Of a stretch of 52,634 nucleotides of DNA, positions 40,881-47,018 are shown in pieces. Position 1 is the first letter of the stretch; the number at the start of each line of letters is the position of its first letter. Source of the stretch: an uncultured Lachnoclostridium sp. (GTDB lineage: Bacteria > Bacillota > Clostridia > Lachnospirales > Lachnospiraceae); the NCBI GenBank assembly GCA_930986645.1, contig CAKNJS010000003.1:1-52634 (forward strand). Direction: 5' to 3'. The position numbers were made by a program, and so were the translations under genes. Below the pieces are notes generated by a model. That model searched no databases, was not told the origin of the DNA, and saw only the letters and a list, made by a program, of their open reading frames with translations.

Positions 40881-43800
40881 TTACAGCATCTTCAGTGCCG
40901 GTATCCCGTCCTCCGCCAGACCGTCAAAGTTCCACACCTCCCCGCTCCAGCCGAGTATCTCTGTATAGAATGCTTTCTCTTTTGTCTGTTCTTCCGTGAC
41001 CGCGAATACACGATCCGCGCTTGTCTCATTCATATTGCTCTGGCTGTCCGAAGTCTCCAGCTCATATGCGCTGCTTGTAATACCGAGTACATCCCATCCA
41101 GATATCCTGTTCGCATTGACGCCGGTGCTCAGGCTGACCGCGCTTTCCACCGCCGCGCTTCCGCTCTGCGGTCCGCCGATGATACCTCCGTTGCCCGTTG
41201 GGTCCGGAGCTGTGATACTGACCTTCGCCGCCACTCTGCGCATAATTCCGCCGCCCTGCCATCCGGTGATGCCTCCGATGCGGGCGCCCATCTGATGGCT
41301 GCTTGTACCCTCGATAGAACCGGTAACGATACAGTCTTCCATAATCCTGCCGTCAAACTGGCCAGCGATACCGCCTATCGTATTATTGGATCTGATTGAA
41401 AGGTTCTCTGCCGAAATCCTTCTGATCTCGCTGTTCGAAATAGTTCCGGCAAGTCCTCCCGTCTGGTTGGCATCGTTTTGGAGCATCAGGTCTTTCACCC
41501 TGATATCTTCAACAACCGAATTTCTGATATCATTGGCAAGAGCGCCTTTCTGGGTATTTCGAGTAAGGTTCGTTCCCTGAATCGTCAGATCCGAGACCAA
41601 AGCCCCGTCCATTGTCTCAAAAAGTACTGCGTTCAGCCCGGATATGGTATGTCCGTTACCGGCCAGTTCTCCGGAAAATGTTCCGGCCACAGCAAAATCA
41701 GAAGCCGCCGATGAGCCGAAATCAAGGTCTGCCTCGAGTACGTACTGTTTTTTCAGAGATTCGGCGGAGTTTCCGATGGCAAGGAATTCTTCCACCGTGG
41801 TAATCTTTCTGTCATCCACCGTCACACTCATATCGCCGTACTCATAGTATCCTTCTGTCTTGGTCTTCACAAGCGGAAGCGGCATATCCGTGCCCTCCAC
41901 TTTAACATTCCCAAGTGTCACTTTCTTTGTTTTCACCGCAAAGAGCGCCTGTGCATCTCCCGCATAAGAAGGTGCGGTAATAGTCAGGTCTGTCACCTGA
42001 GCATACTGCAGGTCTCCGAACAGCGGATATTTCATTCCTGTCACACTGTGCCCGTTTCCGTCCACCACCCCGATGAATCTCCCCGGGATATAGCTTCCGC
42101 CGGAGGCTGTTATATTCGTAAAATCAATATCCTGTTCCAGCCTGTAATATCCGTACGGGTTCTGCGCGGCATACTGAACCAGTTCTTCTGCGGATGTGAC
42201 CGGGATCACTGCCGGGCTCTCATAGATACCGCCGTTTTCAAAATCTCCCGTCACACGCTTGATCATACCGTAGATCATCCGTTTTGTTTCAAAACTCCGG
42301 TTCGTGTTTCCATTCACCGTATCCGCTTCAAATGCTGCCTTGAACTGTGCGATAACCGCATCTTTGTCAAAATACGGAATCTGATCCAGCTTCTGCGCCA
42401 CATCGCGGTAACGGTTCAGCTTATAATCCCTCCATGTGATATTCGGGTCACCGGTAATCTTGCGCAGTGCATCCAGATCATTTTCACTGAGCGCGGATAT
42501 ATATACCTGATATCCCTTTTCATAACCTGCAAGAGCAAGCATCTCCTGCCCCAAACGCTTGAATGAATGGGTATCCGGCGAGCCGCTGTCATTGTGCGGC
42601 TGATACCAGTTCATCGTGTAAAATGACTCGAATCCATAACTTCCGTCTGTAGCCGTTCCCACTTTTTCCGGATAGGAGGCTGCATTCCGGATGGAAATCT
42701 TATGATCCCACAATGCTTCCATACTGTTCAGGTTCATGGCGCCGATTTCCTCCGCCGTAAGCTTCTTATAAGTGGTGCTCATGGATGCACTTCCGCCTGC
42801 GGTATGCTCCGCCTGTACAGCCACCGCCGCCTGCTGCTGCGGTGTCAGCTCAAAGAATGCCTGCGCTGCCAGATAATCCAGCACATATCCCGTCTCAAAC
42901 ATTTTCTTATAGTAGCTGTGGACTTTCTCCGCAGAGTTGATCCGTTCGTAGCTGAAATTATTGGTCATCTCTGTGCCTATATCCATCTTCTTAGAGATGT
43001 TAAACACCATAATCCCGTCCCGCATCTCCTGCGCGATATTTCCGTCCGCATGTGCTTCGCCGCCGGTTCCGATTCTTCTTCCGGCCCCGCCGTAGAAATA
43101 TCTTCCGTCCTGATTGTGGGCAGTCTCATGACTGAACGTAAAGAACGTATAATCATCTGTCCCAAGAGCCGGACTCCACATCCAGATCACGATCGTACCG
43201 TCTGCCACAGCCGCACTTCCGTTCAGGGCGCTCAGCATATCGACAGATTCGTATACCCATTTCATGACCGGATCACGTGTCGCTCCTTTTTCCTGTGCTC
43301 CCGCTGAAGCTGCCGGACTTTCAGGGAAGGAAAGCCTTGTATCAAACTGCAGATTTACAAAACTGTTCAGCTGCTCTGCAGAATTACTCATCCACTGCGA
43401 TGATACTCCGTAGAATATACCCATCTTTCCGGCATACTCCTTTGCAATGGCACGGATCCTCTCCCGCTCCTGCCCGTCTTTCTTCAAATACGTCTCGTAC
43501 CGGTTCATACTTCCGATCACAATCTGAGAAGGAACCGAGATCAGATACATATCCTCCTGCGGGGCGGTCAGGACAGGCAGAACAATATTTTTCCTGCTCT
43601 CGGGCAGACCTTTCAGATTGTCCCAGATCCGATATCTGATCCTGCCCTCATCGCCGGATGCATTCTGTTCCACTAAGATACCGCCGAATGTATCCGCAAA
43701 CCATGTATTTGCATCTTCATAACCGGCGATACTTTTTGAGAAACCGCCCAGAAATTCCATAAAATCCTTTCCAGTGATATTTTTCAATACATTGTTATAA

Positions 43801-46800
43801 AATGTTACCGTCTGTTTCGTTGCCCTCCAGTCCGATAAAGCATTGAGAAGCTGTTCCGTAAGCTCAGAAGCATTGATATCCTCCGACAGTACTTCCTTTC
43901 CGAAAAACATCAGATCGCTCAATACTACGCCATCGTAATCGATGTGATACCATTTATCATAATAATTGTATGAGTACAGACAGCGTTTCAGCTCTTCCTC
44001 ATCTTTCATGCGTTCTTCTGTCAGCGCCTGCACAGCCGGGTGTGCACAGTAAGACGGATACCTCTCCTGAGAAGTAAACAGATCTGCCAGCACGCGCTCC
44101 AGTTTTCCCTTCACACTCTCATTATAATAGTCCGTATACAGCCGGCTCTCATCTTCCTGCGTGATCCCTGCAATTTCTGTATTATAGTCATACGCAAAAG
44201 CCAGCGCCGTCAGATCGGATAGGACATTCTCATCAAAAGCAGCCACATAATTGCGGAACTGATAAGGGAACGTCTGCCCTTCGATTCCGTAAGACGCCAC
44301 GATATTTCCCACTAATTTTGCTTCAGTAAGGGAATATTCCTGCCTCGTATCATCCTCAAATATGACGCGGATCTTTACCGCTCTTCCCAGTGTATCCCTG
44401 TGGATTCCCGCCGTATACGTTCCCTGCCCGTCAAGAGGCAGCACGTATTTGATCTTCTTTGCCGCAAGAGGGTCTGATCCGGACAGCCCGTTCCCATATT
44501 CCACCCACAGCGCGGTGTCTGCAAACGGCATGATTTCCGCCATATTGGCATAAGCCGTCTCCCTGTCCGCCTGATAGTCTTCGTGGTCTTTCACTTCACT
44601 GTAGGAAGGAATTCCATAACTGTTGTCCTCGACAGGAGAATCTGAAAGTATCGGAAGCTTCTTAAGGGCAAGCCCCTCCAGATCCCAGACCTTTCCGTCA
44701 AACCCGAGGATATCCTCATAAAATGTCCGATCATAAACCGCATCTGTTTCTTTTACATTGTTTCCATTGGCTTCTGTTACATTTGTTGAACTGCCGGAAC
44801 CGGAATACTCATATACTTCTTTCACGCTGTTCAGGACATCGAATCCTGCAATCCGGAAGCCTGCTCCCGTACTCATGCTCAAACTGTACTCAATCACCGG
44901 ACTTCCTGTATTCGGCCCGCCGATAATACCACCGTTTCCTTTCTTCGCAGGAGCAATGATCTCTGCATTCGTATAACAGCGGCTGATCTTTCCTCCTCCG
45001 TGCCAGCCGGTGATTCCTCCTGTTCTTGCTCCAAGACTCGGGTGGTCGTAAGTTCCCTGCACCTTGCCTGTAACATAGCAGTCTTCAATCAGGGCTCCCG
45101 CCTCCGTCCTGCCGGCGATTCCGCCCACCGCCACCAGTCCTCTTAATGAAACATTGACAGAGGCGCTTCTTCGTATCGTTGAGTCCGAAAGTTTACCGGC
45201 AAAAGCCCCCATCTCGTCCACATTGTTTGACACTGACGAATCTACAATGAAAACATTTTCCACAATGGACTGTCTCTGGATAAAATCGGCAAGAATTCCG
45301 CTTCTCTGTGCAGTGACCGCCGCGTCCTCGATCACAAGATCATGGATATGCGCCCCGCTCAGCGTGCCGAATAATGAAGTCGGCAGGTTCCGTATCCGGA
45401 AGCCGTTTCCATCCAGCTCCCCGGTAAATGTGCCTGTGGCTGCAGGGGCATCCGCAGAAATCCCCGAAGCGTCCAGATCCTCCGTCAGCTCAAATGTCCC
45501 CTTCGGATTGGCAGCCATCTTATCAAACAGCTCCTGCGCGCTCTTGATCAGAGGATGCTCACCCTCTTTATCTCTGTAAGCGACCGGAAAAGCATACTCT
45601 TCTATGCGGTTTCCGTCAGCATCATACCGGATCACATCCTCCTGATCGATCACCGCCGAAACTGTTCCGCTTTTTTCCTGTCTGAACTCTGAGATTCCCG
45701 TATAAAGATCCGGCAGGCTCTCCATCTCGATCACTGCAAAATAATTCTCCGGATCTTCCGGAAGTCCTTTTGTAACGTCCAGTATGTCTATCTCTTCTGT
45801 CCTTGCGCCTTCACTGTAATATAGAGTTGTATCTGTGATATCCTTGAGCTCAATGGCTTCCTGTATCTCCTCTTCAGGATTTTCCGGTTCTGATGGTCCT
45901 TCCGGGTCCGACGGCTCTCCGGGTTCTGATGGTATCTCGTCATCCGTCTTGTTTTCAATCATGCGGACGAGAAGTGCCAGATCAGTTACTGTAAGTTTCC
46001 CGTCATCATTGAGATCCGCGGATTTCTGAGCGTCCTGACCGAGAATCTCCAGATCGATCAGGTGTTTCTGGATCAATTCAACATCTGTATAACCTATGCT
46101 TCCATCCCCGTCTGCATCGCCCTTTTCTCCCGCCGCCTCTGTCATGGCGCCCGCCGATATGGCAAGCATACTGCAGAGGATTACTCCGGCAAGTATCTTC
46201 GGCCCGTTCTTATTTTCTTTTCTCTTTCTGGTAATCAGGATTCCTCCCAGTGCTGACAGTGAAATCAGAAGCAGCATAATAAAAATGAAGCCCCCTGCGT
46301 CAGTATCCCCCGTCTGTACACTTCCCTGTTCTCCGGTCTGCTCTTCCGCAGCTATCTGCACGGGGTCTTCACTATCTGTATCTCCGTAAGAATCTTCTGT
46401 ATTTCCAGATATACCGTCTTGATCATCTTGACCGCCTTCCACGACGTCATCTTCTCCAGACGCATCTTCCGAACCTTCCGGCATTTCGTCCGGTGTATCC
46501 GGGATCTCCTCCGGATTTTCCTCCGGCTGCTCATCTGAATCTGCCGACATTTGAAATTCAGTATCCTTCAGAAAAATATCTTCTTTTCCTTCAGATACAG
46601 AAACATCCTTCAGCGTAATTGTCGTCTCTTTTATCTCAGCCTGAGCCTTTACAGTCAATGTCAGCTGAAATGCATCTTCGTCCTCAATGCTCCCATTCTT
46701 ATTGATCACTGCAAACTGCCCGTTATCGGCATTATACCGAAGCTGTTCCCAGCCGGACAATGTCTCAAAATCCGACTCTTCCACAGGCTCAAAAATATCT

Positions 46801-47018
46801 GTATCATATTCAAGAGCCGCTCCCAGAGCGTAAATTCCTTCCTGAATATCGTCATAGCCGGCAAGCGAAAAGGTAAGTGTAATATCCTCTCCGGGCGCCA
46901 CTTCCGTCGTCTCGGACGACACCTGCATTTCCGGATTGTCCGCTCCAAACACATCCGCGCCTTTTAATAAGAGTCCGCACACCAGTACCGCTGCCAGCAA
47001 GGCTCTTACTTTTCTCAT
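40881..47018 (-). CDS. M26 (IgA1-protease-like) zinc metalloprotease with cohesin, internal sorting signal and dockerin
   Basis: A 2045-residue surface protein. In order: signal peptide (1-26); cohesin-like domain (about 28-158); acidic linker (159-232); degenerate sorting motif VQTGD (234-238), hydrophobic helix (243-263) and RKRKENK; a second hydrophobic, signal-peptide-like segment (274-291); type I dockerin with two perfect calcium loops, DADGDGSIGYTD (301-312) and DLNDDGKLTVTD (335-346); Pro/Glu linker; beta-solenoid (GLUG-type) module (485-792); catalytic region with HETAH (H1297, E1298, H1301) and E1321 in GRRIGTGGEAHADG; then a second solenoid region (1604-2045). The zinc site and H-to-E spacing of 20 fit peptidase family M26, which includes pneumococcal IgA1 protease. 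Substrate unproven. Confidence 0.88.
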   Translation of the reverse strand: MRKVRALLAAVLVCGLLLKGADVFGADNPEMQVSSETTEVAPGEDITLTFSLAGYDDIQEGIYALGAALEYDTDIFEPVEESDFETLSGWEQLRYNADNGQFAVINKNGSIEDEDAFQLTLTVKAQAEIKETTITLKDVSVSEGKEDIFLKDTEFQMSADSDEQPEENPEEIPDTPDEMPEGSEDASGEDDVVEGGQDDQDGISGNTEDSYGDTDSEDPVQIAAEEQTGEQGSVQTGDTDAGGFIFIMLLLISLSALGGILITRKRKENKNGPKILAGVILCSMLAISAGAMTEAAGEKGDADGDGSIGYTDVELIQKHLIDLEILGQDAQKSADLNDDGKLTVTDLALLVRMIENKTDDEIPSEPGEPSDPEGPSEPENPEEEIQEAIELKDITDTTLYYSEGARTEEIDILDVTKGLPEDPENYFAVIEMESLPDLYTGISEFRQEKSGTVSAVIDQEDVIRYDADGNRIEEYAFPVAYRDKEGEHPLIKSAQELFDKMAANPKGTFELTEDLDASGISADAPAATGTFTGELDGNGFRIRNLPTSLFGTLSGAHIHDLVIEDAAVTAQRSGILADFIQRQSIVENVFIVDSSVSNNVDEMGAFAGKLSDSTIRRSASVNVSLRGLVAVGGIAGRTEAGALIEDCYVTGKVQGTYDHPSLGARTGGITGWHGGGKISRCYTNAEIIAPAKKGNGGIIGGPNTGSPVIEYSLSMSTGAGFRIAGFDVLNSVKEVYEYSGSGSSTNVTEANGNNVKETDAVYDRTFYEDILGFDGKVWDLEGLALKKLPILSDSPVEDNSYGIPSYSEVKDHEDYQADRETAYANMAEIMPFADTALWVEYGNGLSGSDPLAAKKIKYVLPLDGQGTYTAGIHRDTLGRAVKIRVIFEDDTRQEYSLTEAKLVGNIVASYGIEGQTFPYQFRNYVAAFDENVLSDLTALAFAYDYNTEIAGITQEDESRLYTDYYNESVKGKLERVLADLFTSQERYPSYCAHPAVQALTEERMKDEEELKRCLYSYNYYDKWYHIDYDGVVLSDLMFFGKEVLSEDINASELTEQLLNALSDWRATKQTVTFYNNVLKNITGKDFMEFLGGFSKSIAGYEDANTWFADTFGGILVEQNASGDEGRIRYRIWDNLKGLPESRKNIVLPVLTAPQEDMYLISVPSQIVIGSMNRYETYLKKDGQERERIRAIAKEYAGKMGIFYGVSSQWMSNSAEQLNSFVNLQFDTRLSFPESPAASAGAQEKGATRDPVMKWVYESVDMLSALNGSAAVADGTIVIWMWSPALGTDDYTFFTFSHETAHNQDGRYFYGGAGRRIGTGGEAHADGNIAQEMRDGIMVFNISKKMDIGTEMTNNFSYERINSAEKVHSYYKKMFETGYVLDYLAAQAFFELTPQQQAAVAVQAEHTAGGSASMSTTYKKLTAEEIGAMNLNSMEALWDHKISIRNAASYPEKVGTATDGSYGFESFYTMNWYQPHNDSGSPDTHSFKRLGQEMLALAGYEKGYQVYISALSENDLDALRKITGDPNITWRDYKLNRYRDVAQKLDQIPYFDKDAVIAQFKAAFEADTVNGNTNRSFETKRMIYGMIKRVTGDFENGGIYESPAVIPVTSAEELVQYAAQNPYGYYRLEQDIDFTNITASGGSYIPGRFIGVVDGNGHSVTGMKYPLFGDLQYAQVTDLTITAPSYAGDAQALFAVKTKKVTLGNVKVEGTDMPLPLVKTKTEGYYEYGDMSVTVDDRKITTVEEFLAIGNSAESLKKQYVLEADLDFGSSAASDFAVAGTFSGELAGNGHTISGLNAVLFETMDGALVSDLTIQGTNLTRNTQKGALANDIRNSVVEDIRVKDLMLQNDANQTGGLAGTISNSEIRRISAENLSIRSNNTIGGIAGQFDGRIMEDCIVTGSIEGTSSHQMGARIGGITGWQGGGIMRRVAAKVSITAPDPTGNGGIIGGPQSGSAAVESAVSLSTGVNANRISGWDVLGITSSAYELETSDSQSNMNETSADRVFAVTEEQTKEKAFYTEILGWSGEVWNFDGLAEDGIPALKML
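45948..46124 (-). other. Type I dockerin module within the M26 protein
   Basis: Codes for residues 299-357. Both F-hand calcium loops keep Asp/Asn at positions 1, 3, 5 and 12, and each is followed by a helix (VELIQKHLIDLEI and LALLVRMIE). Confidence 0.9.
46122..46322 (-). other. Internal sorting-signal-like segment of the M26 protein
   Basis: Codes for residues 233-299: SVQTGD, a hydrophobic helix, a positive tail RKRKENK, and then a second hydrophobic stretch ending AGAMTEAAG, which resembles a signal peptide. Alone, residues 1-270 would be read as a complete cell-wall-anchored cohesin protein, and residues from about 270 on as a secreted dockerin protease. Confidence 0.7.

Follow-up and report, generated by a model that had tools for sequence, protein, structure and literature searches.

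Proteases of peptidase family M26 with N-terminal sorting signals are already known (PMC7939560, PMC9637739, PMC2225412, PMC7695701), and the available parts of this literature give two accounts of how they are retained at the surface: they are described as 'covalently linked' by sortase A (PMC7695701) or, in the case of the M26 IgA1 proteases, as being cut 56 residues downstream of LPXTG (PMC9637739). In the accessible sections, the metallo-IgA1 proteases and Zmp proteins of streptococci and Gemella combine a signal peptide, an N-terminal LPXTG-type signal, hydrophobic segments and a downstream cut with an M26 catalytic region containing HExxH (PMC9637739, PMC2225412). A protein of this build is encoded on contig CAKNJS010000003.1 of an uncultured Lachnoclostridium sp., of which 52,634 nucleotides were analysed (the window). 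Unlike the streptococcal and Gemella enzymes, it carries a cohesin ahead of and a dockerin behind the cut sites, and we consider it moderately probable that it is a self-tethering surface protease that passes through a full cycle of cutting and redocking.

A sortase-anchored cohesin holding a protease has been described for Ruminococcus flavefaciens, where, according to the available text of two reports (PMC2930009, PMC12484212), the single anchored cohesin of ScaE binds an X-dockerin cysteine peptidase. Unlike the window protein, ScaE and its peptidase are two proteins inside a large cellulosome, whereas the module described here supplies both partners from one chain, with no other cohesin or dockerin matched in the draft genome. 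In Clostridium thermocellum an S8 protease with a double dockerin may also be anchored at the surface through its dockerin (PMC12484212, in the portion accessible), but its cohesin sits on another scaffoldin. For the cohesin-like modules of Clostridium perfringens (Protein Data Bank (PDB) entries 2vo8, 2jh2 and 2w1n), two of the three titles name glycoside hydrolases and not scaffoldins, and, going by the titles, none is a sorted module fused to its own dockerin. No report of a cohesin or dockerin on an M26 protease was present among the literature matches listed, a coverage that leaves out most subscription journals.

The protein is encoded by an open reading frame (ORF) of 2045 amino acids (aa) that runs from ATG to stop at 40881..47018 on the reverse strand, on which all its features lie, with no internal stop. 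Cohesin, sorting signal, dockerin and M26 protease were all recovered in this one polypeptide by Pfam and NCBIfam, every module reported here scoring above its own curated cut-off, which confirms the architecture of the original prediction, made from the sequence alone. One relative (L031; L and G numbers denote loci and genomes) is 95% identical across all 2045 residues in one frame, and in 53 of the 63 loci obtained by a scan of named genomes the whole module is held in one open frame. Because of these two observations the single frame is no sequencing accident; together with the uninterrupted ORF they rule out a frameshift or assembly artefact, and the frame break near codon 270 that had been raised as a possibility is absent.

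The first signal peptide (residues 1-26, 46941..47018), of which A26 is invariant in a 28-row alignment, is followed by the cohesin module (residues 27-160, 46539..46940), matched by Pfam at 31-144 with 30.4 bits (cut-off 24.1). Its top three solved-structure matches were the C. perfringens modules 2vo8, 2jh2 and 2w1n, so that structural comparison favours the cohesin fold proposed for residues 28-158. A single-sequence PDB search with the cohesin listed no cohesin, and an alignment-based search returned dockerins and a weak cohesin match (3ul4_A, E 0.02). The type I dockerin (residues 299-357, 45948..46124) was matched by Pfam Dockerin_1 at 299-354 with 32.5 bits (cut-off 22.9) and modelled by AlphaFold2 (AF2) with a predicted local distance difference test (pLDDT) score of 96-98 over its core. 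The cohesin combines a Pfam match with the fold, and the dockerin a Pfam match with two calcium-binding repeats. Dockerin_1 was found in 54/54 members of the family; D312 and D346 are present in all 54 rows, D339 in 53 and D305 in 48, and at position 301, which opens repeat 1, 33 rows have D, 19 have E and two have H. Of six segments compared over 42 rows, the dockerin was the most conserved.

Between cohesin and dockerin lie an acidic linker (residues 161-232, 46323..46538), predicted to be disordered (AF2 pLDDT <=56 in most blocks), and the sorting motif VQTGD (residues 234-238, 46305..46319), with a predicted sortase cut between T236 and G237. The motif is followed by hydrophobic helix 1 (residues 239-266, 46221..46304; RKR at its end), supported by AF2 and hydropathy, and the basic loop RKRKENKN (residues 264-271, 46206..46229). 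The NCBIfam LPXTG_anchor model matched at 235-267 with 18.3 bits (cut-off 15.9). TG motif, hydrophobic helix and basic tail of a sortase substrate are present, the usual C-terminal position is not, the motif lying about 1800 residues from the C-terminus. In the window's genome the model gave 31 matches at E<=1; as it also matched in all 14 control genomes, weak matches mean little, and 30 of the 31 were inspected by reading the motif and the hydrophobic stretch. In 25 of these (the window protein and 24 others) a sorting-like TG motif was seen to precede a hydrophobic stretch, two had a TG that was not accepted (L147, L162) and three showed no TG (L149, L156, L160). The 24 other accepted signals lie 27-43 residues from the frame end, leaving that of the window protein as the only internal one. 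The exact VQTGD occurs at the C-terminus of nine other proteins of this genome, 27-33 residues from their ends, and the genome encodes three sortase domains. The internal sorting signal of the original prediction is upheld by the model score and by this shared motif.

Hydrophobic helix 2 (residues 272-290, 46149..46205; a helix in the AF2 model) is, judged by comparison with relatives, an internal signal peptide. Its equivalent forms the N-terminal signal peptide of genes in which the dockerin half is encoded separately, which agrees with the second signal-peptide-like helix originally noted. A predicted signal-peptidase site, TEA/A (residues 293-295, 46134..46142), follows it: in 54 rows column 293 is V, A, T, I or M throughout, column 295 is A in 36, and most rows have small-x-A before the dockerin. 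Because of these residues and of the helix-2 equivalents, a second cut after helix 2, probably by signal peptidase after A295, is predicted. It would fall 59 residues past the sortase bond, in line with the 56-residue cut given for the M26 IgA1 proteases in the accessible part of PMC9637739. In the loop between the helices K/R outnumber D/E in 53/53 rows measured (of 54, L099 being left out). In the 28-row alignment the Gly of the TG cut and the dockerin Asp are invariant and the Ala just before the dockerin is nearly so.

The modules, their order and single frame, the cohesin fold, the conservation, the use of VQTGD and the matched types in split genes are given by sequence or prediction; the anatomy of the protein and its comparison with relatives point to the following course of export, membrane topology, cutting, wall attachment and docking. 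The first signal peptide would export the chain, helix 1 would span the membrane from outside to inside, the basic loop would remain inside and helix 2 would span back. Sortase would cut between T236 and G237 and thereby fix the cohesin and the acidic linker on the cell wall. The sortase cut alone, originally thought sufficient to free the protease, would leave the enzyme held by the two-helix hairpin, so that a second cut is needed; signal peptidase would make it past helix 2 (T-E-A295/A296), and the mature M26 protease would begin with the dockerin. This dockerin would then hold the enzyme non-covalently at the surface by binding a wall-fixed cohesin, either that of the same chain or that of a neighbour. 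The balance of evidence inclines towards a polyprotein with receptor and ligand in one chain, cut by sortase and signal peptidase, which would yield a 1:1 calcium-dependent and possibly exchangeable redocking tether.

The architecture was also found in related genomes, both as the 53 in-frame loci and, as the original prediction had envisaged, with the halves as neighbouring genes in seven split loci (L115, L125, L195, L196, L197, L200, L201). The upstream split gene (311-332 aa) encodes a signal peptide, a cohesin, an X-like region and a further dockerin, with no wall anchor; the directly adjoining downstream gene begins with the helix-2 equivalent and continues into the dockerin. In these seven cohesin adaptors (those of L115 and L125 lie at L115:9845-10840 and L125:9971-10924) this second dockerin is of another type. 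With a model trained without them the split-locus cohesins scored 152-161 bits and the adjoining dockerin gene 89-107, compared with 22-69 bits for the other cohesins in loci fetched from split-type genomes and 21-38 for the adaptors' own dockerins. Of seven extra regions fetched, five proved to be split; the other two were L198, whose cohesin is unrelated (26.6 bits), and L199, where a cohesin of the module type (145.5 bits) lies at the end of the contig. Four of the split loci (L115, L195, L196, L197) extend into M26. Solo dockerin-M26 genes that start at helix 2 were found in L126 and as the first gene of L125, and their genomes contain a split-type cohesin gene elsewhere or nearby. In the split cohesin genes the X-like region and the second dockerin take the place of a wall anchor, which corrects the first proposal: something other than the wall may serve as the tether.

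Pairing of cohesin and dockerin, originally proposed as an inference, remains likely in view of these matched types in split genes and of structure prediction. AF2 gave the window module a predicted template modelling score (pTM) of 0.63, where about 0.42 would be expected with the dockerin unplaced, and a relative 33% identical reached 0.74; the second structure prediction took in 51 of the 54 rows. Both values suggest that the dockerin is placed against the cohesin. In the 42 of 54 rows with enough M26 sequence the partial correlation (r) was 0.28 between cohesin and dockerin (0/999 permutations), 0.34 between cohesin and helix and 0.22 between helix and dockerin. Co-evolution was not accepted as proof of binding, as the helices between the modules match the cohesin-dockerin value.

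Several findings weigh against this cycle and concern the pairing, the partners and the cuts in turn. pTM is the only measure by which docking is judged, and cohesin-dockerin pairs may have been part of AlphaFold2's training; linkage may explain the co-variation; and the Pfam cohesin model reaches 1e-3 in just 40 of the 54 members. Three of the split loci (L125, L200, L201) end before M26, at the end of the stretch or contig, and are near-copies of one another.

With regard to the partners, cohesin and dockerin could act as general connectors of the kind known from cellulosomes or amylosomes, the dockerin joining another cohesin and the wall-fixed cohesin recruiting further dockerin proteins; we regard this as unlikely. 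A cohesin-family match was found in 47/58 genomes of the genus, often outside the module, the split-form cohesin belongs to an adaptor that itself bears a second dockerin, and the solo dockerin-M26 gene of L126 has no adjoining cohesin. Other dockerins are present in 4 of the 24 module genomes (hand tally). Against general connectors, the window's draft genome gave at E<=1 one cohesin and one dockerin match, both in this protein, and 20/24 module genomes showed no dockerin outside the module (hand tally). In split loci the adjoining cohesin belongs to the module type, with far lower scores for the other cohesins fetched. At 89% completeness the draft genome could lack a further cohesin or dockerin; within it neither a scaffoldin bearing multiple cohesins nor a set of dockerin enzymes, the marks of a cellulosome, was found.

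Other cohesin-dockerin sets were also seen. In distant metagenome-assembled genomes (MAGs) with split loci, L163-L170 contain cohesin proteins in frames of 221-268 aa, sortases lie 0.5-0.7 kb from cohesins of this type on the same contigs (G368, G370, G372, G375, G381), and L163, L164, L168 and L170 also encode dockerin proteins that are truncated by the locus end and measure at least 439-443 aa; this set is possibly another wall-docking system. Two members of the window's genus (L129 and L130; G313, G353) hold nine and eight dockerins together with a cohesin protein whose frame measures 272 or 277 aa, a small cellulosome-like set; at 1e-3 this cohesin gave no match to the cohesin model of the module.

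The sorting motif, central to the original prediction, proved variable. By eye, with L099 read separately, the 54 rows comprise 36 with TG, seven with A/S-G-D and 11 with no TG-like motif. Weighing against the cuts, these 11 rows keep the cohesin, both helices and the dockerin, the genomes of all 11 have sortases, and LPXTG_anchor reaches 0.1 in just 18 of the 54 members. Loss of the motif through loss of sortase was rejected, sortases being present in 34/34 genomes searched, with or without the motif. On the M26 tree the motif-less rows are scattered (six changes, at least five forced, by a quick method). Because the TG motif varies though sortases are kept, the docking pair and the two helices are, by comparison of the rows, the core and wall attachment is a frequent, dispensable addition; this and the second cut are the chief points at which our reading leaves the original prediction. 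The same rows would suit a membrane hairpin, in which neither cut is efficient, the two helices anchor the protease and the cohesin-dockerin contact merely clamps the outer parts, and the AF2 placement of the two modules needs no cut. This explanation appears rather improbable to us, since G is kept at the cut column in 43/54 rows, the dockerin is preceded by small-x-A in most rows, split and solo genes use the helix-2 equivalent as their N-terminal signal peptide, and VQTGD is a standard motif of this genome. A decayed or accidental fusion without function is very improbable: some copies in other genomes are broken, but order and frame are conserved over many genera and positions in the dockerin and at the cut are (nearly) invariant.

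M26 sequence follows in the same frame in 49 of the 53 in-frame rows, some of which hold only its first part; in L091 and L093 it lies just past a break, L101 is cut off by the contig end, and the frame of L114 contains no M26 and is followed by other genes. In none of the 53 rows was the module seen ahead of another catalytic domain. The remaining ten of the 63 loci (L110, L113, L115, L121, L123-L128) are split, cut by a contig end, solo-dockerin or broken. Gene copies broken by stops or frame changes were seen in L055, L056, L057, L058, L091, L093, L110, L113 and L124 and may represent real decay, phase variation or MAG error. In the window's genus 29 of 58 genomes match the protein, two of them (G327, G355) only around the dockerin. 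In L036 and L060 (G331, G347) the N-terminal module or its cohesin is 51-56% identical, compared with 90-93% for the rest, as if swapped by recombination. The genus also has M26 proteases that start with a plain signal peptide and lack both cohesin and dockerin (L052, L053).

In a drawn sample of one genome per genus, M26_C was present in 7 of 299 genera of the family; one locus of another genus has the same module order (L014), and L013 encodes a plain signal peptide and M26 without the module. In a drawn sample of 391 genomes of the class, 32 matched at a threshold of 1e-8, most via the dockerin end or the cohesin end only, and the full-length module was found in two (the window's and G481). 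Genome labels include Mediterraneibacter, Sellimonas caecigallum, Ruminococcus turbiniformis, Eubacterium sp. ER2 and Bacilli and Tenericutes MAGs; by these labels the module occurs in several Bacillota groups and perhaps in Mycoplasmatota. In distant Clostridium-labelled MAGs the motif is often LPKTG, the canonical form; two others have LPQTG and IPNTG.

Behind a P/E-rich linker (residues 358-381, 45876..45947), Pfam matched Peptidase_M26_N (PF05342) at 382-590 (45249..45875) with 151.5 bits (cut-off 27.7) and Peptidase_M26_C (PF07580) at 930-1514 (42477..44231) with 130 bits (cut-off 22), and it also found Glug. The zinc motif HETAH (HExxH; residues 1297-1301, 43116..43130) and the downstream E1321 are intact, and both the domains and the zinc motif expected of family M26 are present. 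A metallo-IgA1 protease (ZmpA) by name was rejected, NCBIfam ZmpA giving 214.4 bits vs a cut-off of 3000. All metallo-IgA1 proteases have a G5 domain according to the accessible part of PMC9637739; in the window protein none was listed among seven Pfam families at E<=1, a search in which HMMER filters drop many weak matches. We class the protein as a variant of the M26 surface proteases and neither as an IgA1 protease nor as a cellulosome. In secondary blastp alignments, parts of the C-terminal region of 446 residues (1600-2045, 40884..42221) match the N-terminal M26_N/Glug region of relatives, the pattern that a duplication of that region would leave. The neighbours, a downstream 374-aa ORF with weak LysM-type matches under their cut-offs and an upstream 159-aa ORF on the opposite strand, look unrelated. 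Elsewhere in the window's genome (L019:4151-6779) two adjacent sortases lie beside a protein with an LPSTG signal, resembling a pilus cluster.

If true, the cycle would give gut Bacillota a specific answer to how an M26 protease is retained at the surface, in which the wall would retain the socket and the released enzyme would carry the plug. Enzyme and holder would come from one gene, which would apply the cohesin-dockerin pairing to its own product. The fused, split, solo and motif-less forms are natural controls, and the module may offer a ready-made self-assembling display system.

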